Origin: Sphingosinicella humi
Lineage (GTDB): Bacteria; Pseudomonadota; Alphaproteobacteria; Sphingomonadales; Sphingomonadaceae
NCBI RefSeq assembly: GCF_003129465.1
Contig: NZ_QFFF01000001.1
Coordinates: 248,001-312,000 of the forward strand
Direction: 5' to 3'
DNA: 64,000 nucleotides
In this document: positions 10,368-59,062 of the stretch, one piece after another
Layout: each line of letters begins with the position of its first letter
Position numbering within the stretch: the stretch's first letter is position 1
Notes under the pieces: generated by a model
The model's database searches: none
What the model was told of the DNA's origin: nothing
Seen by the model: the letters and a program-made list of their open reading frames with translations, nothing else
Made by a program: the position numbers and the translations under genes

Positions 10368-11558
10368 CTATTTGCCGCCGAAGCTCTTGGGCGCCGGGGA
10401 GACCGTGTTGAACCCGCTCGGCGTCACCTGCAGCACTTCCAGCGTGCGCTGGGCGATGCCGTTTTCGCCGAAACGAAAGGCGCCATCCACCCCCATGAAG
10501 CCTTCCGGGTTCCCGAGTTCCGCCGCAGGGAAGGGCCGACCCACGGGCCAGTCCTGCCCGATCCGGACCGCCAGCAGCACGGCGTCGTAGCCGAGGCTCG
10601 CCAGCCGATAGGGATTGCTGCTGTAGCGGGCGCGGTAGCGGGTGCGGAACTGGTTGAACATATTGTCGGGCACGCTCGCGAACCATGAGCCGCGCAGCGC
10701 CGGCGTGGTGCCGAGATTGCCCTCGCTCTTCCAAAGCTCCGTGCCGAGGATGCGGGCATCGCCGGAGGGGCCTTCCTTTATCATCGGCGCGGCGCCGATG
10801 CCGATACGCCCATTGTCGGCGATGAGCACCGCATCGTAGCCGGACTGTTCATTGAGCCGCGTCACTGCCGACCGAAGCGAGGGGGCGCTGCGATCATAAG
10901 TCTGCATGGCGACCATCCGCCCGCCCGCCTGCTCCACCGACGCGATCAGCGCCTGGCTGGCGCGGCGGCCATAATCGCCGTTGGGGATGAGGCCTGCGAA
11001 ACGCTCGAGGCCCTGCGAGCGGGCATAGTCGACGACGCGATCCACCGCCTGGGCCGGGTCGAAGCCCATCAGGTAGACGCCGTTTCCGGCGACGCTGGCG
11101 TCGTTGGAAAAGGCGATGACCGGCACGCCCGCGCGCGCCGCGATGGGGGCGACAATGCGGACATTTTCGGCCAGCAGCGGTCCGAGGAACAGGCGGTTTC
11201 CATCAGCCAGCGCTTCGTTGACGGCGGCTTGCGCACCCTTGCTCGTGTCGTAGACGGTGATGCGGACGTTCTTCCCGCCCGTGTCGAGAATCGCGAGGTT
11301 CGCCGCGTTGGCGATCGACTGGCCGACGCCGGCATTTTCGCCGGAGAGCGGCACCAGCACGGCCACGCGGTTGCGATCGGTGTCGGTGGGAAGGCCGGGC
11401 GTCGGTTCCGGCGCCGGCGCCGGCTCCACCGGCTGCGGCGGCGCGGGGCGCGGCCTCGGCACCATCTGGCAACCCGCCATCAACAGGCTCAGTCCCGCCA
11501 ACGCCGCCAGTCCGAGGAATGAGCGCCGCGCTTGCGGGCGAGTGATCCGGTCTGCCAT
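10368..11558 (-). CDS. Penicillin-binding protein activator (LpoA-like periplasmic lipoprotein)
   Basis: 396 residues. A lipoprotein signal with lipobox LMAGC is followed by a Pro-rich linker (about 34-55) and a type I periplasmic-binding fold (RNRVAVLVPLSGENAGVGQSIANAA; VPVIAFSNDASVAGNGVYLMG). In this clade such proteins are annotated as PBP activators, related to the C-terminal domain of LpoA, but the fold is shared with branched-chain amino-acid binding proteins. With no transporter genes next to it, the activator call is preferred. It is divergent from rsmI with only 11 bases between the starts, so their promoters must overlap coding sequence. Confidence 0.75.
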   Translation of the reverse strand: MADRITRPQARRSFLGLAALAGLSLLMAGCQMVPRPRPAPPQPVEPAPAPEPTPGLPTDTDRNRVAVLVPLSGENAGVGQSIANAANLAILDTGGKNVRITVYDTSKGAQAAVNEALADGNRLFLGPLLAENVRIVAPIAARAGVPVIAFSNDASVAGNGVYLMGFDPAQAVDRVVDYARSQGLERFAGLIPNGDYGRRASQALIASVEQAGGRMVAMQTYDRSAPSLRSAVTRLNEQSGYDAVLIADNGRIGIGAAPMIKEGPSGDARILGTELWKSEGNLGTTPALRGSWFASVPDNMFNQFRTRYRARYSSNPYRLASLGYDAVLLAVRIGQDWPVGRPFPAAELGNPEGFMGVDGAFRFGENGIAQRTLEVLQVTPSGFNTVSPAPKSFGGK

Positions 11559-50388: not shown

Positions 50389-50480
50389 CAATCTGTGTTA
50401 AAAGGCGTCATCACCTGAACCACTTCGCAAGCATCCTGTGACTGAGAGACACATGTGCTCCCGCTTGCCACAGGAGAGGT
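50389..50480 (+). promoter_or_regulatory. Conserved leader motif, copy 1 (upstream of a decayed gene)
   Basis: GACTGAGAGAC at 50440-50450, GTGCTCCCGCTTGCC at 50455-50469 and the RBS-like GGAGAGG at 50473-50479. It is near-identical over about 75 bases to the copy at 57578. CTCC can pair with the downstream GGAG or the upstream GAG, giving exclusive hairpins. The sequence that follows (to about 50560) resembles the start of the 57673 gene but has AAG in place of ATG and an early stop, so the gene is dead here. Confidence 0.7.
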
Positions 50481-50579
50481 CATTCCAAGGGTAAATGTCG
50501 GCTCATTAGGAGCAGCGGCGCATCCACGCGCCCGGATCGAAGCTGAAGCAGCGCCGAGCCATTGTCGAGGAGTGGTTCA

Positions 50580-50834
50580 ATGAACGATACCTTCAATAGA
50601 GTGGGCGCGATAGCCGGGTGGGAGAATGAAGGGGGGGCGCTGGAGCCGATTATTTCAGGGGACCGCCACTCGGCGGCCTATTTTCGGGATCGCGAGGCCC
50701 TTTGCCGCTCACGGGCAAACGAATGTCGCCGGCCTGAGATGCGGAGCACCTATTTAGGCTTCGCTGCGCGATATGCTGCGTTAGCGCGATACCTGGATGC
50801 AGCGGAGATTCGGGCTGAGATGACAATCGCCTGA
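50580..50834 (+). CDS. Small hypothetical helical protein
   Basis: 84 residues from ATG 50580, with GAGGAG ahead. The C-terminal half (DREALCRSRANECRRPEMRS, then TYLGFAARYAALARYLDAAE) has the same A-x-E...R-x-x-Y/H-x-x-x-A-x-R-Y layout as the 57673 gene product. This suggests a paralogous family of tiny Ala/Arg-rich helical proteins in the island. No known domain is recognised. Confidence 0.6.
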   Translation: MNDTFNRVGAIAGWENEGGALEPIISGDRHSAAYFRDREALCRSRANECRRPEMRSTYLGFAARYAALARYLDAAEIRAEMTIA

Positions 50835-50852
50835 CAGGTAGAGCTGCAGGGC

Positions 50853-51278
50853 ATGAGAAATATCGGCACCGCTCGCGATGGTTCTACGGCCAGGTCGGAG
50901 ATTGCCGCGCTGCGCTTGCGCGCATTTAAATGCCGCGAATATGCACGCGAGTATCATGCCGACGTCGGGTCCTCCCTTTCCGAACTAGCCGTGGAGCTAG
51001 AAAAGAGGCTGATCGCATGGAGCGCGCAAGAGCCCTCCGGCGCTAGTACCCTTCCTGGAGCCACCGGAATTCCAATTTCCGGCCGGCAGATGGCGCGCAT
51101 CGGTAGGCCAGGCGCTGCTATTGTTGAGGCTATTTTCTGCCGGTGGGAACGATCATGCTTGTCAGCCATTGACCCTCATCGCCGAGCAAGAATGAGGCCT
51201 CGGCGGCTGAGACGCCTCCGCGCTCCCGCCTCGTTCGCAGGAAGCGAGATGGCTCTGATTTTCACATGCACGCGCTGA
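50853..51278 (+). CDS. Hypothetical protein, possibly frameshifted
   Basis: 141 codons. The first 60 residues (SEIAALRLRAFKCREYAREYH, ADVGSSLSELAVELEKRLIAW) look like a real helical protein. The rest (from about GATGIPISGRQ) becomes Arg-rich and overlaps the start of the response regulator by 13 bases. The real gene may end earlier, with a frameshift near 51050. Weak AGGG precedes the ATG. Confidence 0.35.
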   Translation: MRNIGTARDGSTARSEIAALRLRAFKCREYAREYHADVGSSLSELAVELEKRLIAWSAQEPSGASTLPGATGIPISGRQMARIGRPGAAIVEAIFCRWERSCLSAIDPHRRARMRPRRLRRLRAPASFAGSEMALIFTCTR

Positions 51279-51616
51279 TCATCGAGGACGAGTTCCTCAC
51301 AGCCCAGCTGATCGAGGACCGCCTTCGGGATCTCGGGTTCACATCGTTTTCATTTGCCGAGGACGAGGACGGAGCAGTAGCCGCCGCTCGCGCGCGCTAC
51401 CCTGACCTCATCACATCGGATGTTCAGCTCGCGTCCGGGTGTGGCATTGATGCTGTCCAACGCATCTGTGATGAGAACCCAACGCCATTCCTCTATATCA
51501 CCGGCACAGCCGTAATGGTGCAGGAGCGGTGCCCACGCGCCGTGATCGTTCAAAAGCCCTTCGGCATGGCCGACTTGCGCGCGGCCGTGCGCGAAGTCAG
51601 CAAGACTGCCGAATAG
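51266..51616 (+). CDS. Single-domain response regulator
   Basis: 116 residues that are only a receiver domain: acidic pair E7/D8 in LIIEDEFLTAQL, phospho-acceptor Asp52 in LITSDVQLASGCG, Thr in YITGTA, Lys97 in VIVQKPFG. No output domain is present, so it must act by binding a partner or as a phosphate relay. No histidine kinase is adjacent. Confidence 0.88.
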   Translation: MHALIIEDEFLTAQLIEDRLRDLGFTSFSFAEDEDGAVAAARARYPDLITSDVQLASGCGIDAVQRICDENPTPFLYITGTAVMVQERCPRAVIVQKPFGMADLRAAVREVSKTAE

Positions 51617-51631
51617 CGCCGGAGGTGCGCC

Positions 51632-51787
51632 GTGTCCCATCCGACCCATTACGAAGCTCGCGCCGTCCCAACAGAAATGTCCGCACCGCGTATCATTGCC
51701 TACCCGGGGGAAAGATGCGCCGATTCCCAAAATCCGTGGGGGGCGATGGGGGTCCATGTCGAGATGACCTCCTACGACCTCTCGTAG
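51632..51787 (+). CDS. Tiny hypothetical protein, 51 residues
   Basis: GTG start with GGAGG 7 bases upstream, 15 bases after the response-regulator stop. The product begins MSHPTHYEARAVPTEMSAPR and ends VHVEMTSYDLS. The good RBS and tight spacing suggest it belongs to the response-regulator operon. No homology is recognised. Confidence 0.45.
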   Translation: MSHPTHYEARAVPTEMSAPRIIAYPGERCADSQNPWGAMGVHVEMTSYDLS

Positions 51788-51872
51788 GGCCGGATCGTGT
51801 TCAGCGAGCTTGGCCCGGGCAAGCCCGGCTCCCAGGCGTACGCTCGGCGGGCGCAGGAAAAGGAGAATAGAG

Positions 51873-51989
51873 ATGGCCAAGGGTCAGGTCCGCAGCAACA
51901 AGGAAGCGCGAAAGCCGAAGAAGGAGATCAAGAAGACGATTGCCGCCAAGCCATCGCAGAAGGGCGCAACGGTGAAGCCGAATGGCTGA
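51873..51989 (+). CDS. Tiny basic protein, 38 residues
   Basis: MAKGQVRSNKEARKPKKEIK followed by KTIAAKPSQKGATVKPNG; about a third of the residues are Lys/Arg. AAAGGAG lies 7-8 bases before the ATG. Short Lys-rich proteins of this look (MAKGQxRSNKEx) occur across alphaproteobacteria and may bind nucleic acid. Its stop overlaps the next start by 8 bases. Confidence 0.65.
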   Translation: MAKGQVRSNKEARKPKKEIKKTIAAKPSQKGATVKPNG

Positions 51990-52161
51990 AAGGTTCGTCC
52001 GGCATCGGCAGCCCTGGACGGGGGACGAGGTTGCCAAGCTCAAACTTCTGGCCGGCAAGGGCATGGGCCTCAAGGCGATCGCCAAGGCGCTGACGCGGAG
52101 CGAGGAATCCGTCCAGGACCGCGCCAAGCAGGACGGGGTGAAGATCGCCAAATTGCGGTAA
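51982..52161 (+). CDS. Small SANT/Myb-like helical protein, 59 residues
   Basis: The reading begins MAERFVRHRQPWTGDEVAKL and continues GMGLKAIAKALTRSEESVQDRAKQDG. W-T-x-x-E...L...G...I-A-x-x-L-x-R-x-x-x-S-V is the pattern of SANT/Myb or GcrA-like helix-turn-helix segments. The start lies inside the preceding gene (8-base overlap), so translation is coupled. It may bind DNA. Confidence 0.6.
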   Translation: MAERFVRHRQPWTGDEVAKLKLLAGKGMGLKAIAKALTRSEESVQDRAKQDGVKIAKLR

Positions 52162-52259
52162 CGTCAGGACAACAACCGCAGTGCCTCGTCAACGGCTGCA
52201 GCCTGTCCCCCCGATATTGCATTCAGCCCTAAACCGAAAACCGGTCCGGCATCTTGCCA

Positions 52260-52439
52260 CTATGCGTCGGGGTCGCCGCCTTCCATTTCGATCATGGATT
52301 CCACCCGTTCCATGTGTTCCTTGAACTCGTCGGCTTCCCGCTGATCTCCGCGCCTCTGGGCTTCGTCCATGAAGGCGCGGCAATCGCGCTTCATCCGATA
52401 CAGGTTGCTCAGGACCTGTTTATTAGTGGGAAGGGGCAT
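52260..52439 (-). CDS. Small hypothetical coiled protein, 59 residues
   Basis: Start MPLPTNKQVLSNLYRMKRDC with AGGAGG 5 bases upstream, followed by helical charged sequence (EAQRRGDQREADEFKEHMERVESMIEMEGG). A soluble helical protein; no domain is recognised. The RBS is among the best in this part of the window. Confidence 0.6.
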   Translation of the reverse strand: MPLPTNKQVLSNLYRMKRDCRAFMDEAQRRGDQREADEFKEHMERVESMIEMEGGDPDA

Positions 52440-52631
52440 TTCGCCTCCTCTGCCTTGCTCTAAGGATATAGGAAGCGGCGGCTGGATGCGACAGACGCAG
52501 CGCCCAAATAAAGACGGAGCGGTGCCACGATCAGGCTTCGCAGCCTCCCGGCAGAACATGGCTCGGGCTGGAGCGCTGGGCTTCGATTGCGGCACGGAGC
52601 AGGCGTTCGGTGCGACGGCCCCTCTTGGGGT

Positions 52632-52892
52632 TCAGCCACGCTCCATGAGCAGCGCGAATAGCTGATCGAGATTCTGCTGGGCATCCTGAACGACCGGATT
52701 GTTCGCATTGCCCGGCAGCGCGAGCGGCTTGCTCATGATGTCGTGCAGGCTCTTAGTCTCCGCATCGGCGAGGAGGTTTCGCTTTCGTAGAATGATAGCG
52801 AGGCTCAAGATGCCGTTGAAGGCCGCGACATCGAGGGCTTGCTGAGCCTCCAGCATCTGCTGCGCCGTCAGATCATGTTCCCGCTCGTTCAT
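52632..52892 (-). CDS. Hypothetical protein, 86 residues
   Basis: MNEREHDLTAQQMLEAQQAL and ILSLAIILRKRNLLADAETKSLHDI, ending NLDQLFALLMERG. It is mostly helical and soluble. AAGGAGCTT lies just upstream of the start. No known domain. Confidence 0.6.
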   Translation of the reverse strand: MNEREHDLTAQQMLEAQQALDVAAFNGILSLAIILRKRNLLADAETKSLHDIMSKPLALPGNANNPVVQDAQQNLDQLFALLMERG

Positions 52893-53221
52893 GCAAGCTC
52901 CTTGGCGACGCTACTTGGACGCGAACTGCCCAGCCTCAGCGCCGAACTCAAGCTTGGCATGCGCACGATCAGCCATCGCGCTCTTGAATGTCTCCGGCTG
53001 CAGCCTCGACGTCACGATCGGGTAGTTTTGGGAGTTGAAGCGTGTGTCGCGTGATCCGGAACGATCAGGAACGGGGCGACGGGAGCTGTGGACATGACGA
53101 CCTTTTAGGATCGGGCGGATCATTGGGTCGGGAAGGCACGACCCGCCGAGTAGCCCAGGAAATGCGGGGATCCTGCTCTCGAACAGGCAATTGGCGGACG
53201 CCTTGGCGTCCGCCACTCACA
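52893..53221. other. Spacer with an uncertain minus-strand reading
   Basis: A minus-strand frame at 52911-53216 ends in protein-like sequence (RFNSQNYPIVTSRLQPETFK onward to AGQFASK), but its N-terminal half looks random and lacks a good start. A different frame gives MSTAPVAPFLIVPDHATHAS. It may be a small gene with a frameshift. Nothing else is evident except the hairpin at 53193. Confidence 0.3.
53193..53214 (-). terminator. Terminator hairpin after the cold-shock gene
   Basis: Perfect 10-bp stem GGCGGACGCC / GGCGTCCGCC with a 2-base TT centre, 7 bases beyond the cold-shock stop codon. The downstream T run is weak. Confidence 0.7.
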
Positions 53222-53428
53222 TTAGGCGTCCTGCAGGTTCACGGCAGACGTCTTGCCGCGCTGGTCGGTCTCGAGCTCATAGGACACGCGTTGGTCCTTG
53301 TTGAGGGTTACCATGCCAGCGCGCTCGACGGCCGAGATGTGGACGAAAGCATCGCTGCTGCCATCTTCCGGCGCAATGAAGCCATAGCCCTTGTCGTTGT
53401 TGAAGAATTTTACGGTTCCGGTGATCAT
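53222..53428 (-). CDS. Cold-shock domain protein (CspA family)
   Basis: 68 residues: MITGTVKFFNNDKGYGFIAP carries RNP1, and DAFVHISAVERAGM carries RNP2. Single-strand nucleic-acid chaperone. The start at 53428 is fixed by the family N-terminus. AAGGAT precedes it, and about 150 bases of apparent leader up to 53580 are typical of temperature-regulated csp mRNAs. Confidence 0.95.
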   Translation of the reverse strand: MITGTVKFFNNDKGYGFIAPEDGSSDAFVHISAVERAGMVTLNKDQRVSYELETDQRGKTSAVNLQDA

Positions 53429-53699
53429 GAGGATATCCTTGTCCCATGTATGACGGGCATGCGCCAACAGCGGCACATCCCGGCGTCTTGAAGCTCGAAA
53501 GGGACAAAGGGGGAGCCGGAGCGGCCCGTTATCCGTCGCAGGCGACGTTCAGCGATTCCCATATAGCGGCTTTTTCGCAGAAAGATAGCTCACGCTGGAA
53601 AGTGGCTTGATGATTAGACTTGGCCGTAAGCTGAATTTCCGCTTTCGGATGACGTCACGCGAAAGCGGCACACTCAAGCGAGGTGATAGTCCCTTTAGC

Positions 53700-54065
53700 T
53701 CACAGGCGTTCCGCGTAATAATTGTCGATGCGGCGGGCGTAACCATTATCCCATTGAGGGGCGGTGTCAGGGCGATAACTCGGCCCGCCGTCTAGGACTG
53801 TCTTGTCAACTGCGATGGTGTAGCCCCCCCTGTCTTGGTTCACCTGAAGGAGGCCGAAGGGGATCGGATGGTAGCTCTGACCGAGCCCGAGCAAGCCGCC
53901 GAACGAGATGACAGCATATTCCACCTTTCCGTGATGGCGTTCGATATGAAAGCTGTACAGGGTCCCCAGCTTGCGCCCGCGACGGTCGAAAACCGGGGTG
54001 TCGTCCACACGAGCGCTGATCAGCCGCATCATGCCAGTCGCTTGGCTCGCTCCTACCATTCCCAA
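53700..54065 (-). CDS. PRC-barrel domain protein, second copy
   Basis: 121 residues. VFDRRGRKLGTLYSFHIERH, then YAVISFGGLLGLGQSYHPIPFGLLQV aligns closely with the core-genome PRC-barrel protein at 38100, and both end in a Tyr-rich tail (IDNYYAERL). Unlike that gene, no EcfG promoter was found upstream. Start Met1 or Met3. Confidence 0.85.
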   Translation of the reverse strand: MGMVGASQATGMMRLISARVDDTPVFDRRGRKLGTLYSFHIERHHGKVEYAVISFGGLLGLGQSYHPIPFGLLQVNQDRGGYTIAVDKTVLDGGPSYRPDTAPQWDNGYARRIDNYYAERL

Positions 54066-54158
54066 CCTCCTGGCCTCGCGAGCTTACGTTCGGACAGCCG
54101 CGAAACTAACGCTTCGGGGTGCGAAAGGTGGCCGAGGGTGCACTCGATCAGTCACAGG

Positions 54159-54395
54159 CTAGTTTGATAGAGGCGTAGGCAACTGATGAAGCGAGATGTT
54201 CACACCGGCGATCCGCGCTGGAGAGTTCAACTTTGCCGTCATCTGCCTCAGCACCCTCAAGCGATGCTGATAGGTGTTATGATGCGCTCCGACGACGCCA
54301 TTCGCAACGTCGGCTGATAACGCCCTGCCCATGCGGTCGACGGAAGCCTTGAATGACCTTTGCACGTCCGAGGAAGTCTGGGGAAGAGTATTCAT
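54159..54395 (-). CDS. Small hypothetical protein under leader motif copy 4
   Basis: 78 residues from the second of two adjacent ATGs (54395; the first is 54398): MNTLPQTSSDVQRSFKASVD, ... VVGAHHNTYQHRLRVLRQMT. AAGGAAGGAG precedes it with 5-base spacing. The gene directly follows the conserved leader at 54399-54440. Function unknown. Confidence 0.55.
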   Translation of the reverse strand: MNTLPQTSSDVQRSFKASVDRMGRALSADVANGVVGAHHNTYQHRLRVLRQMTAKLNSPARIAGVNISLHQLPTPLSN

Positions 54396-54398
54396 CAT

Positions 54399-54440
54399 GG
54401 CTCCTTCCTTGAGCGGGAGCACGGAATATCTCTCAGTCGC
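54399..54440 (-). promoter_or_regulatory. Conserved leader motif, copy 4
   Basis: On the minus strand: GCGACTGAGAGATA, then GTGCTCCCGCTC, then AAGGAAGGAG just before the ATG. It has the same order of boxes and spacing as copies 1-3 but precedes a different gene, so the leader itself is conserved rather than the gene. Confidence 0.65.
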
Positions 54441-54597
54441 CCTGTGCCCAAGACATGGGAGCGATATCATGCATATGAGGTCTCCTTCCGCGATTACCAG
54501 GCGCAGGTCGCCTTCGAGTAGGCGCCGCATACTGCCATGCTTTCGCGCAGTGGAAGATCGTTGAGTACAATCTGCACTTGCACGATGCCGGAGCTGG

Positions 54598-55866
54598 TCA
54601 CCCGGTGGGCCGCCCCTGCGGGTCGTTCTTGGTAGCCCAGTCTACGAGAGCGCCAGCCGTCAGACCGTGAACGATTGTCGACGCGAGAATGGTGAAGGCG
54701 ACGGTCGCCCACAGTCTTCCCTCATTGGTAAATTCTAGATGTCCCGTGGCGTAGCTGACATAGTAGATCGATCCGATGCCCCGGACGCCGTAGAAAGCTA
54801 TCACGGCCCGTTCCCGCCTGGGCAAACCCGCGCCCGCGAGGGCCAGCCATCCACCAAGTGGGCGTATCACAAGGATCAGAGCCAGGCCGATTGCCACGTA
54901 GGGCCATTCGAGTTCGGGCCACAGCGCCGGGAGGGCGCCGCCGATCATGATCAGGAGCAAGGCTGTCAGCGCCTGCTCAATCGATTCATTAAAGTCGTGC
55001 AATCGGGAATGGAATTTGTGCTGCAGCTCGGTACGGCGGAGGGTAAGCCCCGCCACGAAGGCGGCAATGAAGCCGTAGCCTTCAACCAGTTCGGTCAAAC
55101 CGTAGCAGAAGAGAACTCCCGCAAGCGCGATCACCCCCGACCCTGTGTCCGCAAGAACATTTCCTCGCGGCACAATGAACATGACCCTTCCAAGCACCCA
55201 TCCGATTGCGGCACCCGAGGCTATTCCCACAGCAGTTCGGTAAAGCAGATCCCTCGCCACCCAATCATAGCCCCAAGTGTGAGGGGCGAACCCTTCGGCT
55301 GCGATGATGAGGCCCAAATAGACGAAGGGAAAAGTGAGGCCGTCGTTAAGTCCCGCCTCGGCGGTGAGCGAAAACCGAACCGGGTGCTCGCCCCCCTCGG
55401 CTGGCCTACCGACCTGTACGTTACCTGCAAGGACGGGATCGGTGGGAGCCAGAGCTGCGCCGAGGAGGAGCGCCCCGGCCAAGGTCATGCCGGCCAGCCA
55501 CCAGCCAAGGAGCGCCACGGCTGCGATTGTGAGAGGCATCAAGATTGCGAGTAGTCTAATCGTCGGTCGCCAGCGGTGATAACTTGAGAGGTCGTCGATC
55601 TTGAGTCCCGTTCCGAACAGAGCGACGATCACAGTTAATTCACTGGCCAGTTCCCAGAGGCGGGGCGCAGAACGGGGATCAAGCCGCGCCGGCATCCCAG
55701 GTACCAGCACAAAGGAGAGCAGGCCCCCAAGTATCAAAAGCGCCGATGCTGCAGGTTCGCGACCAGAAAATAGGCGCGGAATCCAGAAGGCGAGAATAGT
55801 CGCGGCACCCAGCACCGCCATTCCCATGTGATGAGGGGACAGGCTGAAAAATGGCTCCCCGGCCAT
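54598..55866 (-). CDS. NhaP-type cation:proton antiporter (CPA1)
   Basis: 422 residues with about 12 hydrophobic segments. The ion-binding region is LAPTDPVLAGNVQVG, followed by FSLTAEAGLNDGLTFPFVYLGL, typical of NhaP/K+:H+ antiporters. No C-terminal RCK domain is seen. It probably exchanges Na+ or K+ for H+ at the inner membrane. Confidence 0.92.
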   Translation of the reverse strand: MAGEPFFSLSPHHMGMAVLGAATILAFWIPRLFSGREPAASALLILGGLLSFVLVPGMPARLDPRSAPRLWELASELTVIVALFGTGLKIDDLSSYHRWRPTIRLLAILMPLTIAAVALLGWWLAGMTLAGALLLGAALAPTDPVLAGNVQVGRPAEGGEHPVRFSLTAEAGLNDGLTFPFVYLGLIIAAEGFAPHTWGYDWVARDLLYRTAVGIASGAAIGWVLGRVMFIVPRGNVLADTGSGVIALAGVLFCYGLTELVEGYGFIAAFVAGLTLRRTELQHKFHSRLHDFNESIEQALTALLLIMIGGALPALWPELEWPYVAIGLALILVIRPLGGWLALAGAGLPRRERAVIAFYGVRGIGSIYYVSYATGHLEFTNEGRLWATVAFTILASTIVHGLTAGALVDWATKNDPQGRPTG

Positions 55867-56247
55867 GCGGTTAGATGCGTTTCAGTGGTGGATCGGCGTG
55901 AGCCGCCAGGCGCTCAAAACCGAGACGTATTTTGATATGGCCATTAGCAGGCTCCTTGGCCAGCGTATGCGGCCCCAACATCGAGGCCTTTTGAAGGCTT
56001 GTCTCCGACTCGCTAGCCGGCCTCCGTCGCAAGGTAACCGCCGTTGAGCACTGCCAGTTCCTGCGTCATCTCTGCCACTCAGCTGAAAAAGGTTCGCCGA
56101 TCCCGGTGATGCAAGCTCCCTCTCCAGGCGACTATAACAGATCCCTCAGTCGCCCCGCACCCGAAGTACGGAACGCGTTACAGCAACAGGGTCGAGGAGA
56201 AACGCCGTCATATTGGTTGTCGAGCCGGCCAAGGTCCGGGGCGTATT
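55867..56247. other. Spacer between antiporter and broken esterase
   Basis: About 380 bases without a convincing gene. A minus-strand GCGACTGAGGGAT segment near 56135-56150 weakly recalls the leader motif, but the CTCCC box is missing. Confidence 0.4.
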
Positions 56248-57389
56248 CTATTTGTCCGGTCCGGCGGCGCTCAATAGTCCGGCAGAGCGCAGGGCATCCT
56301 CAATGGTCTTCTGGACCCCGGCGACTGGCACAGGACGCTCTGGGTGCTCCTTCGGCGCGAAGTCCGTCCGTATAGACGTCCCGCCATTTGGCGTAGATCG
56401 CCGCTCCGCCCGACCACCTTGAATCGTTCGCACTGCCCCTTCGGGCGCGATGCCGAAAAAGGCGGCAATCCGGTCGGTTGAACTCAGCCCGACATCGAGC
56501 ATGTGCGGGCCAGCTTCTCCGGATTGACCCTGTCCAGAGCCGGGCATCAACGGGGTGCCGTGGTCCATGCCTCTTACGGCAAAATGCTCTATCAAGTCCT
56601 GGCCCTCCGGTCCCTGCCACACCCGGCGGACATGCCCGTCGACGATCTCTCGGCGGTGGGGACTCTCACTCACTCCATGCAGGCTGGTCCACTGCGTCAC
56701 CAGTGCGTCCGCGTTGGCCGGGGACACGACGCGATCCGCGCTACCCTGCCAGATCGACACTCGCGGCCATGGATCGGAATGAGGCGACGCAGCGCGAACC
56801 TTGTTCGCGAGTTCGGCCCCATTTGCGAAACCACGTCCGGCCATGAGCTCGAACGCTTCAGCCAGATTCGAGGCGCAGCCGGAGCGGCGAACAGTTCCGG
56901 ATATGTGGCCAGCATCACCGATGTCATGGCCCCGCCGGCCGAGAGGCCGGTGACGAACACTCGTTCGCCGTCGATCGGAAAGCGCGACTTCATGGCCTCG
57001 ATCATGCCGGCGATCGAAGCGGCTTCCCCGCTGCCGCGCGTCGTGTCGCCCCGCTGATACCAGTTGAAACACAGATTCGGATTGTTCTCGCGCTTCTGCT
57101 CCGGATAGAGCAGTGCAAAACCATGCCGGTCAGCCAGCCGCGACCAGCCAGCTCCCCGATCGTAGCTCCTCGCGCTTTGGGTGCAGCCATGCAAAACCAC
57201 CAGCAGTGGCGCCTGCGCCTCGAGAGCCTCCGGCACGTAGAAGAGACTTCTTAAATTGCCGGGATTCCTGAAGCCTGCGAGCTCCCGAAGCCCGCCGCTG
57301 TTTACCTCTTCCACCGGCGAGACGGGATGCGCGAACGCGAAGGCTGCTCGGCCTCGCTTCAAGCGGGCCAGGGTTTTCGCCAGCGACAT
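56248..57389 (-). pseudogene. PHB-depolymerase-type esterase, disrupted by an internal deletion
   Basis: The upstream frame (57389 down to about 56900) reads SLFYVPEALEAQAPLLVVLHGCTQSA, FNWYQRGDTTRGSGEAASI and the nucleophile GLSAGGAMTSVMLATYPELFA. It then leaves homology. The other frame resumes with GCASNLAEAFELMAGRG, VSIWQGSADRVV (catalytic Asp) and GMDHGTPLMPG (His). About 26 bases, not a multiple of three, seem to be missing at the junction, so about nine residues are lost and the frame is shifted. The parent is an extracellular-type short-chain PHA depolymerase family member. Likely non-functional. Confidence 0.82.
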
Positions 57390-57577
57390 TGTTTCTTCTC
57401 CAAAGAGGTCCGGGACCTGCTCAGCCGCTTCAACGCTTCTTTATCAGTGATTGTTGCTGCACCGCAGCAAAATTGCTGCGCAGACGCTCCGATCGCCACC
57501 ACATGCGTTCGCCATCCCGTCCTCTGCCTAGCCGGACGCGACAATCGGCGAGGCATCACGTGCTACCTACGTTTGGA

Positions 57578-57672
57578 TGTGTTATAAGGTCTTTATCACC
57601 TGAACCGCTTTGCAAGCATCCTGTGACTGAGAGACCCGCTGGTGCTCCCGCTTGCCCAGGAAAGGTCCTCCC
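57578..57672 (+). promoter_or_regulatory. Conserved leader motif, copy 2
   Basis: GACTGAGAGAC at 57625-57635, GTGCTCCCGCTTGCC at 57642-57656, RBS AGGAAAGG at 57658-57665 and ATG at 57673. It shares about 75 bases with copy 1, including CTTTATCACCTGAACC-like and GCAAGCATCCTGT segments upstream. GACC/GGTG-type pairing could close a hairpin between the two boxes, and CTCC could alternatively contact the RBS. Confidence 0.75.
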
Positions 57673-57915
57673 ATGGACAGGAATTATTGGCTCCGCAGGA
57701 GCAGTGTCGCATCGATGATGGCGCGCGAGGCAACGAGCGCCGAAGCCCGCCTGATCCACTACGAGCTGGCCGGGCGCTACAGCGCCAAGGCCTCGTCGGG
57801 CGGGCTAGGTCCATCGCGGTCCCAGAATATCTGGCGTCCGTCTGAGCCTGGGGACATACCCAAGACGGGTGAGGAGAGCCCCCGGTCAAGCCGCGCAACC
57901 GAGTGGCGGACATGA
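57673..57915 (+). CDS. Small hypothetical helical protein behind leader copy 2
   Basis: 80 residues, start MDRNYWLRRSSVASMMAREA, then ARLIHYELAGRYSAKAS. The middle matches the A-x-E...R...H/Y-x-x-x-A-x-R-Y layout of the 50580 product. AGGAAAGG lies 7 bases before the ATG. The stop overlaps the next start (ATGA). The second half (GLGPSRSQNIWRPSEPGD) is less ordered. Unknown function. Confidence 0.6.
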   Translation: MDRNYWLRRSSVASMMAREATSAEARLIHYELAGRYSAKASSGGLGPSRSQNIWRPSEPGDIPKTGEESPRSSRATEWRT

Positions 57916-58085
57916 GCCGGGCGCGCGAAAGATCGTCGGTAGATGCTGCGGCTGCGATGGCTCGTCACCACATCGAATGTGTTCCGGTCGACTATTTCCA
58001 TTGGAACGGCTTTAGATACACCAGTCTCGATGACGCCGTGGCCGCCGCCGAACGCGCCGCGTCCGCAGGCCGAAGCGGCGGCTGA
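57912..58085 (+). CDS. Small hypothetical protein, translationally coupled
   Basis: 57 residues from ATG 57912, overlapping the previous stop by 4 bases: MSRARERSSVDAAAAMARHH, then VPVDYFHWNGFRYTSLDDAV and AAAERA. The YFHWNGFRYTSLDDAVAAA segment is compact and resembles short sphingomonad proteins with a Y-x-x-x-G-F/Y-R-Y-x-x-L-D-D-A pattern. No function is known. Confidence 0.6.
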   Translation: MSRARERSSVDAAAAMARHHIECVPVDYFHWNGFRYTSLDDAVAAAERAASAGRSGG

Positions 58086-58086
58086 G

Positions 58087-58293
58087 ATGTTCCATCGCTT
58101 TTTCGGTAGGCACGTCGCCGACCCGGAATGCAGCCACTTGGACCGAGGCTATTTTCGGGAGCCCGGCGTTTTTGATCTTCTCGTCAGGCAGAAGCGTGAT
58201 GAGAAGTCGTCAGCCAGATTGCGACAATCGGCAGACCGCTCTCTGCGCGTAAGCCGACGCAGGCCTGCTGGACCCCAAACGAACCCCGGATAG
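58087..58293 (+). CDS. Small hypothetical protein, low confidence
   Basis: 68 residues from ATG 58087, one base after the preceding stop: MFHRFFGRHVADPECSHLDR then GYFREPGVFDLLVRQKRDEK. The tail becomes Arg/Pro-rich and may not be real. The position right after two coupled genes gives some support. Confidence 0.3.
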   Translation: MFHRFFGRHVADPECSHLDRGYFREPGVFDLLVRQKRDEKSSARLRQSADRSLRVSRRRPAGPQTNPG

Positions 58294-58320
58294 CGAGGGT
58301 CTGTAGGAAGGGAGAGATAA

Positions 58321-58494
58321 ATGACTGAGCAGGACCTCCATCACCTCGCCGACAGATGCGAGGACACGGCCGCTGAATGGACCTCCCGGTATTTTCTCGA
58401 ACTCGACGGCGGCAAGAAAGCTGATCCGGAACTCATTAAAGGCGCCCAGATTATGATGCGCCTGAGCGCTGGCTTCCGCGATGTCAGACGCTAG
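58321..58494 (+). CDS. Small hypothetical protein, 57 residues
   Basis: MTEQDLHHLADRCEDTAAEW, then TSRYFLELDGGKKADPELIK and AQIMMRLSAGFRDV. AGGGAGA precedes the ATG by 5-6 bases and the composition is strongly protein-like and helical. No domain is recognised. Gene order with 57673-58293 suggests a run of tiny genes read rightwards. Confidence 0.6.
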   Translation: MTEQDLHHLADRCEDTAAEWTSRYFLELDGGKKADPELIKGAQIMMRLSAGFRDVRR

Positions 58495-58507
58495 CGGCGT
58501 GATATGG

Positions 58508-58609
58508 ATGCGCCCGAAGAAGATCGATGAAGCGCTACGGCACCGCCTGTCGAGACTTTGCGCTTCGCTCGGCGCCGTGGCGCGCGTATTGAACGAACGC
58601 AAAGGGTGA
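58508..58609 (+). CDS. Very small open reading frame, 33 residues
   Basis: MRPKKIDEALRHRLSRLCAS, then LGAVARVLNERKG. It is 13 bases after the previous stop, basic and helical. No RBS of note; could be spurious. Confidence 0.25.
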   Translation: MRPKKIDEALRHRLSRLCASLGAVARVLNERKG

Positions 58610-58710
58610 ACCCCGGACACGAAGGCCAATCTTTATCTTGGTCTGGCATAGCCTTCGGCAAGGATGAGTCCCATATAATAAGCATCGCACCATCTTTCTG
58701 AGCTAGATGC

Positions 58711-58750
58711 GACTGAGAGACCGTTCGTTCTCCCGCTCTAGTGGAGACAG
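58711..58750 (+). promoter_or_regulatory. Conserved leader motif, copy 3
   Basis: GACTGAGAGACC at 58711, TCTCCCGCT at 58729-58737 and GGAGA at 58743-58747, with ATG at 58751. TCTCC and GGAGA are perfectly complementary over 5 bases, and GAGA upstream can also pair with TCTC. It is shorter than copies 1 and 2 but keeps both boxes and the RBS in the same order. Confidence 0.65.
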
Positions 58751-59062
58751 ATGATTCGCCCATCCCCTACATCCAGAACCAGGCATTTTACGGCCTTTCG
58801 CTCAGCGGCGGAGGAGGTCGGTAATGCGTCCGCTAATCGAGATCGGGCATGCGAAGGCGATCACAAGCACGCCCGCAGTGGCCATATCGTTCAGACTGGC
58901 GATGCCGATCAACCTTACAAGGTCGTTTTCGAGCATGAGGATGGTCGGAACTCCGAGCAAACTTGCGCGACCATGCGCGAGGGGGAGGCAATTATCCGCC
59001 GGAATACGCCGACCCCGCCGTCAAGAGATACCTCCCGCGATCAGAAGGCGACTGCTCTATGA
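58751..59062 (+). CDS. Small hypothetical protein behind leader copy 3
   Basis: 103 codons from ATG 58751. The C-terminal half (HIVQTGDADQPYKVVFEHED then GRNSEQTCATMREGEAIIRR) is clearly protein-like; the first 40 residues are not. Another frame from GTG 58742 gives DSPIPYIQNQAFYGLSLSGG and stops at 58813, so there may be a short gene followed by a second gene whose start is internal, or a frameshift. Confidence 0.4.
   Translation: MIRPSPTSRTRHFTAFRSAAEEVGNASANRDRACEGDHKHARSGHIVQTGDADQPYKVVFEHEDGRNSEQTCATMREGEAIIRRNTPTPPSRDTSRDQKATAL

Follow-up and report, generated by a model that had tools for sequence, protein, structure and literature searches.

The 64,000-nt stretch of the Sphingosinicella humi genome analyzed here (contig NZ_QFFF01000001.1, positions 248,001 to 312,000; hereafter the window) contains five copies of a leader element, placed ahead of small open reading frames (ORFs) and a response regulator gene. 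An earlier, sequence-only reading had reported four copies of a shared core followed by a box, and all four were recovered at the places it gave: the decamer GACTGAGAGA is exact at 50440-50449+, 54429-54438-, 57625-57634+ and 58711-58720+, and each of these copies has one CTCCCGCT, at 50458, 54412-, 57645 and 58730, respectively. The core is as that reading described it, but the conserved unit begins about 30 nt further upstream, at an ATCRC, and a diverged fifth copy (copy 2 below) had been missed. As judged from sequence comparison, the motif is a 5′ leader element of messenger RNA (mRNA) of about 60 nt, larger than the decamer and the box. The copies are listed below, where S1 and P1 denote the two helices of the predicted fold, R1 and R2 the models used in the searches, and E the expectation value.

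50410..50469, forward strand: leader copy 1; model R1 E 1.3e-12; core 50440-50465; S1 with its 5′ strand from 50411, 6 of 8 pairs; P1 of 6 bp, 50427-50432 (GCAAGC) with 50463-50468 (GCTTGC).
51178..51239, forward strand: leader copy 2 (diverged), upstream of the response regulator at 51266; found by the structure finder and by model R2 (E 0.012); S1 51179-51186 with 51199-51206, 8 of 8 pairs; P1 51190-51198 with 51228-51236, 9 bp; boxes CTGAGA 51207-51212 and CTCCC 51223-51227.
54408..54465, reverse strand: leader copy 3 (54440-); model R1 E 2.2e-10; S1 6 of 8 pairs, P1 8 bp.
57595..57656, forward strand: leader copy 4 (57625+); model R1 E 1.3e-11; S1 6 of 8 pairs, P1 6 bp (GCAAGC/GCTTGC).
58684..58741, forward strand: leader copy 5 (58711+); model R1 E 1.2e-9; S1 6 of 8 pairs, P1 4 bp (GAGC/GCTC).

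By itself and with up to one mismatch, the decamer GACTGAGAGA does not rise above the chance level (6 occurrences against an expected 3.74). The joint pattern GACTGAGAGA-gap-CTCCCGCT matches at five places in the whole genome (3.03 Mb), four in the window and one on contig C2, before a Crp/Fnr-type gene; the reversed control has no match. The genome total is six copies, the diverged one included. The five exact copies are well separated from the remaining model matches, and model R2 returned nothing beyond the six at E up to 1, while R1 scored copy 2 at only E 0.9, ranking it behind four other weak matches. The core of copy 2 is CTGAGACGCCTCCGCGCTCCC, in which CTGAGACG stands where the other copies have CTGAGAGA. 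In the window, the structure finder, which required at least 7 of 8 S1 pairs, returned copy 2, copy 4 with its S1 in another register and a site at 10664 that is doubtful, with none in the reversed control; copies 1, 3 and 5, whose S1 has 6 of 8 pairs, were passed over.

A conserved ATC, mostly ATCRC and in a few cases ATT, was found 26-35 nt upstream of GACTGAG in 109 of 126 distinct matches. Counted from the A of this ATC, a promoter consensus is present with CTTGnnA spanning -36 to -30 and CCCCATAT spanning -15 to -8, and the base preceding the A is a pyrimidine in 93%. The promoter spacing thus points to the A of ATC as the probable first base of the mRNA. The consensus resembles the one recognized by sigma-32; a general stress (EcfG) promoter was considered and rejected, since its consensus was not seen in that of the leaders. 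By eye, a subset of leader promoters has GATTAGG and TGTTA in place of the main consensus.

Two helices are predicted downstream of this start. In S1, of up to 8 bp, mRNA positions 2-9 pair with a strand that ends in the GA of GACTGAG; in P1, commonly of 4-6 bp, the strand after the 5′ strand of S1 pairs with the bases directly behind CTCCC. The 5′ strands of P1 vary (GCAAGC, GTAGGC, GAGC, CGGGC and others), with the partners GCTTGC, GCTTAC, GCTC and GCTCG, and 0-3 bases separate them from the 3′ strand of S1. The strand order is S1-P1-S1′-P1′, so that the helices cross and the leader is predicted to fold as an H-type pseudoknot, with the near-invariant CUGAGAGA-loop-GYGCUCCC located in its third loop.

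Covariation was evaluated in two sets of leaders. From the 126 distinct pattern matches of the first set, 17 without an ATC-like start were set aside (mostly non-alphaproteobacterial chance matches, but L075 and L100 look real) and L045 and L057 were removed by hand, and the remaining 107 were dereplicated to 90. The second set comprised 127 leaders, from sequence-pattern matches in other loci, filtered against the first 90 by removing those more than 75% alike. In 61 leaders hand-picked out of 83 and aligned with plain MAFFT, 80.7% of the S1 cells were paired, against 66.0% after shuffling, and the covariation score was 0.408 against 0.179; none of 500 shuffles reached 0.408 and slid controls stayed at or below 0.118. 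S1 was also above all 500 shuffles in cells changed on both sides and in pair types, and above every slid control, while its count of pairs with a double change was unremarkable in the same alignment (257 of 500 shuffles). Among the 90 dereplicated leaders, 593 of 720 S1 pairs were formed, against a null of 468 (standard deviation (sd) 9.6, maximum 499), with at least 6 of 8 pairs in 78 leaders, and the P1 extension reached 191 against 121.9 (sd 7.9, maximum 150). The second set gave 884 against 759.5 (sd 7.9) for S1 and 264 against 139.9 (sd 10.3) for P1. For P1, 112 dereplicated model matches, which overlap the other sets, gave 289 against 170.1 (sd 9.7). By eye, bases that are otherwise fixed are changed on both sides of S1 in L171 and L152, and of P1 in L163 and L174. 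Both helices therefore covary strongly, as is characteristic of a structured element of the 5′ untranslated region (UTR). For an inner hairpin, followed from loop position 1 with -1 onward, no covariation beyond composition was seen, except that position 4 with -4 was paired in 11 of 15 among the longest loops.

Across the 124 model matches, C(U)GAGAGA, GYG and CUCCCGC were near-invariant, and departures were few in searches tolerant to change (CCGAGAG, CUGAGAGU, CUGAGAC). Since many loci were found through patterns requiring part of the core, this invariance is partly an effect of search selection. The sequence-only reading had proposed that CTCC pairs either with the upstream GAG(A) or with the GGAG of the ribosome-binding site (RBS), two folds that would exclude each other as in a translational switch or a thermosensor. 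The GAG(A):CTCC hairpin is invariant, and for this reason covariation cannot bear on it. In nested folding without the pseudoknot, the GAGAG-side pairing of CUCCC had a mean probability of 0.04 in the 90 leaders, whereas the side of the Shine-Dalgarno (SD) sequence had a mean of 0.68 and exceeded 0.5 in 66 of them. The copies of this genome differ: the SD side is favored in copy 3 (0.80) and in the C2 copy (0.70), the GAGAG side in copies 1 (0.37) and 5 (0.77), and neither in copy 4 (SD 0.20).

The sequence around the SD is in line with the SD-side pairing. GGAG is present in 69 of the 90 leaders; among the background ORFs that have an SD, 142 of 437 carry it. The background set used here and for the neighboring bases below has uncertain start codons. 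In 68 of the 69 leaders, GGAG lies 5-11 nt from the GCT, about the 0-11 bases claimed earlier. A C directly after it (GGAGC) occurs in 35 of 69 leaders and 59 of 184 background sites (P = 0.008), a G directly before it in 28 of 69 and 47 of 184, respectively (P = 0.03); in the second set, GGAGC occurred in 53 of 95 and GGGAG in 30 of 95. Taken together, the nested folds and the GGAGC context support in general, without proving it, the CUCCC:SD half of the proposed switch. The alternative-hairpin proposal thus holds in part, and the covarying helices are S1 and P1, which it had not included. A significant competition between the 5′ strand and the SD region (z 4.8 in the first 88-90 leaders, with flat controls) was dropped as a general feature, as it was not replicated in a further set of 120; the AUCACC subtype alone keeps a matching GGUGA (5 of 14, against 0 of 76 other leaders).

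The leader recurs far beyond this locus. The joint pattern was present in 11 of 60 genomes, this one included, and at least 120 stretches match in named genomes; among the 80 titles listed, most are from Sphingomonadales (Sphingomonas, Novosphingobium, Sphingobium, Sphingopyxis, Qipengyuania and others), and further listed matches are from Azospirillum canadense (L020) and Microvirga (L056, L072), besides some scattered chance matches. A covariance-model search of the order, as the sequence-only reading had suggested, was run with R1, a model trained on Sphingomonadales-rich sequences, and found the leader in 24 of 118 genomes at E 0.05, all within the family of the window. In the class, R1 matched 18 of 289 genomes at E 0.02, the weakest being doubtful, and in the phylum 19 of 299 at E 0.001, nine from the family, nine from the rest of the class and one from beyond it. 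The pattern gave 20 matches in 13 of 385 class genomes against one control match, although at least four of the 20 (L195, L200, L201, L208) look like chance. With a looser pattern, 114 of the 249 genomes searched in the family had matches, and about 51 had a non-zero control. Model R2 detected 1-8 copies in 23 of 26 genomes of the same genus and, at E 0.001, 1-15 copies in 28 of 30 genomes (5-10 Mb) of a distant alphaproteobacterial genus, some leaders of which were in its training set. The recurrence, the unrelated genes behind the leader and the compensatory changes agree with the earlier suggestion that selection acts on the leader; two of the outcomes that reading had named as refuting, no further copies outside this locus and no covariation in a larger alignment, did not occur.

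In a viral contig collection (L260-L310), the core pattern was found in 51 stretches, many with the full leader, preceding DUF6894-like, Crp/Fnr-like or small-protein genes; these stretches are probably bacterial or prophage-flanking DNA. The L261 and L301 matches have a different, longer inner repeat and a P1 of just 2 bp, with an ORF of 10 aa following; they are probably another element.

The following genes lie behind the window copies.

50580..50834, forward strand: 84-aa ORF of the WENEGG type, the first intact ORF after copy 1, about 110 nt downstream; this type follows other leaders.
51266..51616, forward strand: response-regulator receiver-domain protein behind copy 2 (Pfam Response_reg, 1.9e-11).
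54159..54398, reverse strand: small protein of the HHNTYQHR type behind copy 3; no Pfam match.
57673..57915, forward strand: 80-aa protein of the MDRNYW type behind copy 4; no Pfam match.
58751..59062, forward strand: 103-aa ORF behind copy 5; no Pfam match.

The genes differ from copy to copy, as had been observed, but copy 1 has no intact gene directly behind it. Copies 1 and 4 have the promoter, the leader and some downstream sequence in common (50410-50520 and 57595-57720), and an ORF start matching that of copy 4 is gone behind copy 1, which therefore appears to be a degraded duplicate of the 57625 locus that has kept its leader intact. Two protein families of the window recur with the leader in other genomes: the copy 2 regulator is 52% identical to the L166 protein, and its relatives in L166 and (by eye) L323 carry the leader, while the copy 3 protein is 56% identical over 43 aa to the L022 protein, which also follows the leader. 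A 9-codon ORF after copy 2 (51250-51279) overlaps the start of the response regulator and possibly serves its coupled translation.

Among 84 of 141 script-found downstream ORFs, chosen for variety and with most MDLN-type proteins left out, Pfam counts were 13 for Crp-type HTH, 12 for cNMP-binding, 8 for DUF6894, 3 for response regulator, 2 each for DUF1508 and Xre/MbcA/ParS, and 1 for a HisKA_2 kinase (L329, with PAS). Proteins starting with MDLN are the most frequent unnamed family among the downstream ORFs, and the MDLN, ISAIE, WENEGG and HHNTYQHR types had no Pfam match in ten-protein scans. Back-to-back leaders are frequent; divergent pairs with starts about 150-200 bp apart were seen in L325, L327, L296, L308, L085 and L161, and the pair in L325, and apparently that in L327, provides one leader for a Crp/Fnr-like gene and one for a DUF6894-like gene. 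In three loci, a cold-shock-domain gene is no more than a few kb away from leaders (53222-53476 in the window, by Pfam CSD; L244 and L245, by eye), none seen with a leader of its own. A sodium/hydrogen exchanger gene (54598-55866) adjoins copy 3, and the L110 leader precedes an apparent P-type ATPase gene.

On balance, we propose that the element is a cis-regulatory pseudoknot RNA of about 60 nt at the mRNA 5′ end, whose core, when engaged, would free the SD and set translation. The leader is likely a translational switch, and probably decides whether the genes behind it are translated. The conserved loop segment would be the site recognized by a trans-acting factor or a small ligand. With this site engaged, CUCCC would be held within the pseudoknot, possibly with GAGAG, leaving GGAG free and translation on; with the site not engaged, CUCCC (often GCUCCC) would pair with GGGAG(C) and initiation would be blocked. 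That the bound state is the on state is our assumption, and the opposite direction is possible. One signal would in this manner set the translation of Crp/Fnr proteins, response regulators, a PAS kinase and small proteins.

Several observations weigh against this proposal. S1 has just 6 of 8 pairs in all four exact window copies, and P1 is of 3 bp or fewer in 52 of the 127 second-set leaders. The shuffle nulls leave relatedness in place, although the signal is still far outside them and repeats in the second set. GAGAG:CUCCC does not covary and, in its fuller form, includes an A-C mismatch. The SD complementarity to CUCCC is in part simply that of a normal SD, and the loop plus CUCCC against the SD region showed no covariation beyond fixed bases (436 against a null of 436.6). 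The competition between the 5′ strand and the SD was absent from the further 120 leaders (z -0.3), a set that includes a few leaders of the first.

The leaders may, as we suggest tentatively, form a new riboswitch class widespread in Alphaproteobacteria, whose pseudoknotted 5′ end would sense one common stress or signalling molecule and co-ordinate the translation of Crp/Fnr and response regulators, of a PAS kinase and of dozens of small proteins without a name; if true, this translation-level regulon would be set by an RNA and not by a transcription factor. The main rival has an RNA-binding protein or a small RNA, not a metabolite, acting in trans: it would bind CUGAGAGA and GYGCUCCC as displayed by the pseudoknot and control the translation or the mRNA decay of the regulon. 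Such a partner would suit the many unrelated genes, the 1-15 copies per genome, the conserved sequence in a loop and the presence of regulators among the targets, but a simple antisense site would not need two covarying helices, and nothing found here, where no search was aimed at a factor or a complementary small RNA, speaks directly for one; we regard this explanation as possible though doubtful. If transcription starts at the A of ATC, S1 takes nucleotides 2-9 of the mRNA, and the pseudoknot, by pairing the first nucleotides, could protect the mRNA from 5′-dependent decay with no sensing involved; this is unlikely, as it leaves the near-invariant CUGAGAGA, GYGCUCCC and the SD context unexplained.

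The thermosensor idea, in which the CUCCC:GGAG hairpin melts on warming, draws on the presence of this hairpin in 66 of 90 nested folds, on the likeness of the -35 CTTG and -10 CCCCATAT to the heat-shock sigma-32 consensus, and on the cold-shock-domain gene nearby. Neither an invariant loop sequence nor a pseudoknot that covaries is required for a thermometer; behind the listed leaders, no gene for a chaperone or a small heat-shock protein was recognized, and no Rfam match to ROSE or another thermometer was obtained at the tested leaders. Because of the invariant loop and the lack of a recognized heat-shock gene, this idea appears quite improbable, and no result of the present sequence comparisons points specifically to temperature. 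A DNA-level element, a repeat or a chance similarity would suit the near-chance frequency of the decamer alone and the chance-like matches in the class; the joint pattern (20 against 1 in the 385 genomes), the fixed place between promoter and RBS and, strongly, the strand-specific covariation of base pairs make this highly improbable. For the proposed cis-regulatory pseudoknot, the exact bases to mutate, a search consensus and a concrete hunt for the ligand or factor are now defined, and the leader offers a way into a regulon of signalling genes and otherwise unnamed small proteins in environmentally important alphaproteobacteria.

None of the 4227 families of Rfam 15, the ROSE models among them, matched the tested leaders: there was no match in the window at gathering scores, nor at E ≤ 5 in eight loci and in seven distant loci, and copy 1 at E ≤ 10 gave only a chance-level snoRNA match on the other strand (E 7.4). 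No description of the element was found in the literature searched, which reached few subscription journals. The element is thus best regarded as a putative translational pseudoknot leader without a recognized family, and riboswitch status is not claimed as proven. The SAM-II, SAM/SAH and preQ1-II riboswitches are likewise compact H-type pseudoknots in the 5′ UTR just before the RBS, and preQ1-II also has a hairpin in its long loop; the present leader differs from them in its conserved sequence, in giving no Rfam match and in preceding many unrelated small and signalling genes, with no biosynthesis pathway recognized. ROSE thermometers are also alphaproteobacterial leaders with a paired SD, but they are not known to have a pseudoknot and their targets are heat-shock genes.

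The serC element (RF00517), one of several alphaproteobacterial elements, is similar in having a putative start directly upstream and the RBS near its last helix, but differs in having two stems and serving one pathway (PMC1273637); its Rfam model gave no match here. The odc1 leader, compared here by its description, takes its name from the ornithine decarboxylase genes that it precedes and has a pair of adjacent UUG starts together with an upstream ORF of 11 aa, whereas the present leaders precede other genes, mostly with ATG or GTG starts (PMC8632094). Still, as an alphaproteobacterial leader with a 5′-end pseudoknot and translational control, assayed for a Sphingomonas example, odc1 is the nearest described leader of this kind that we found (PMC8632094).

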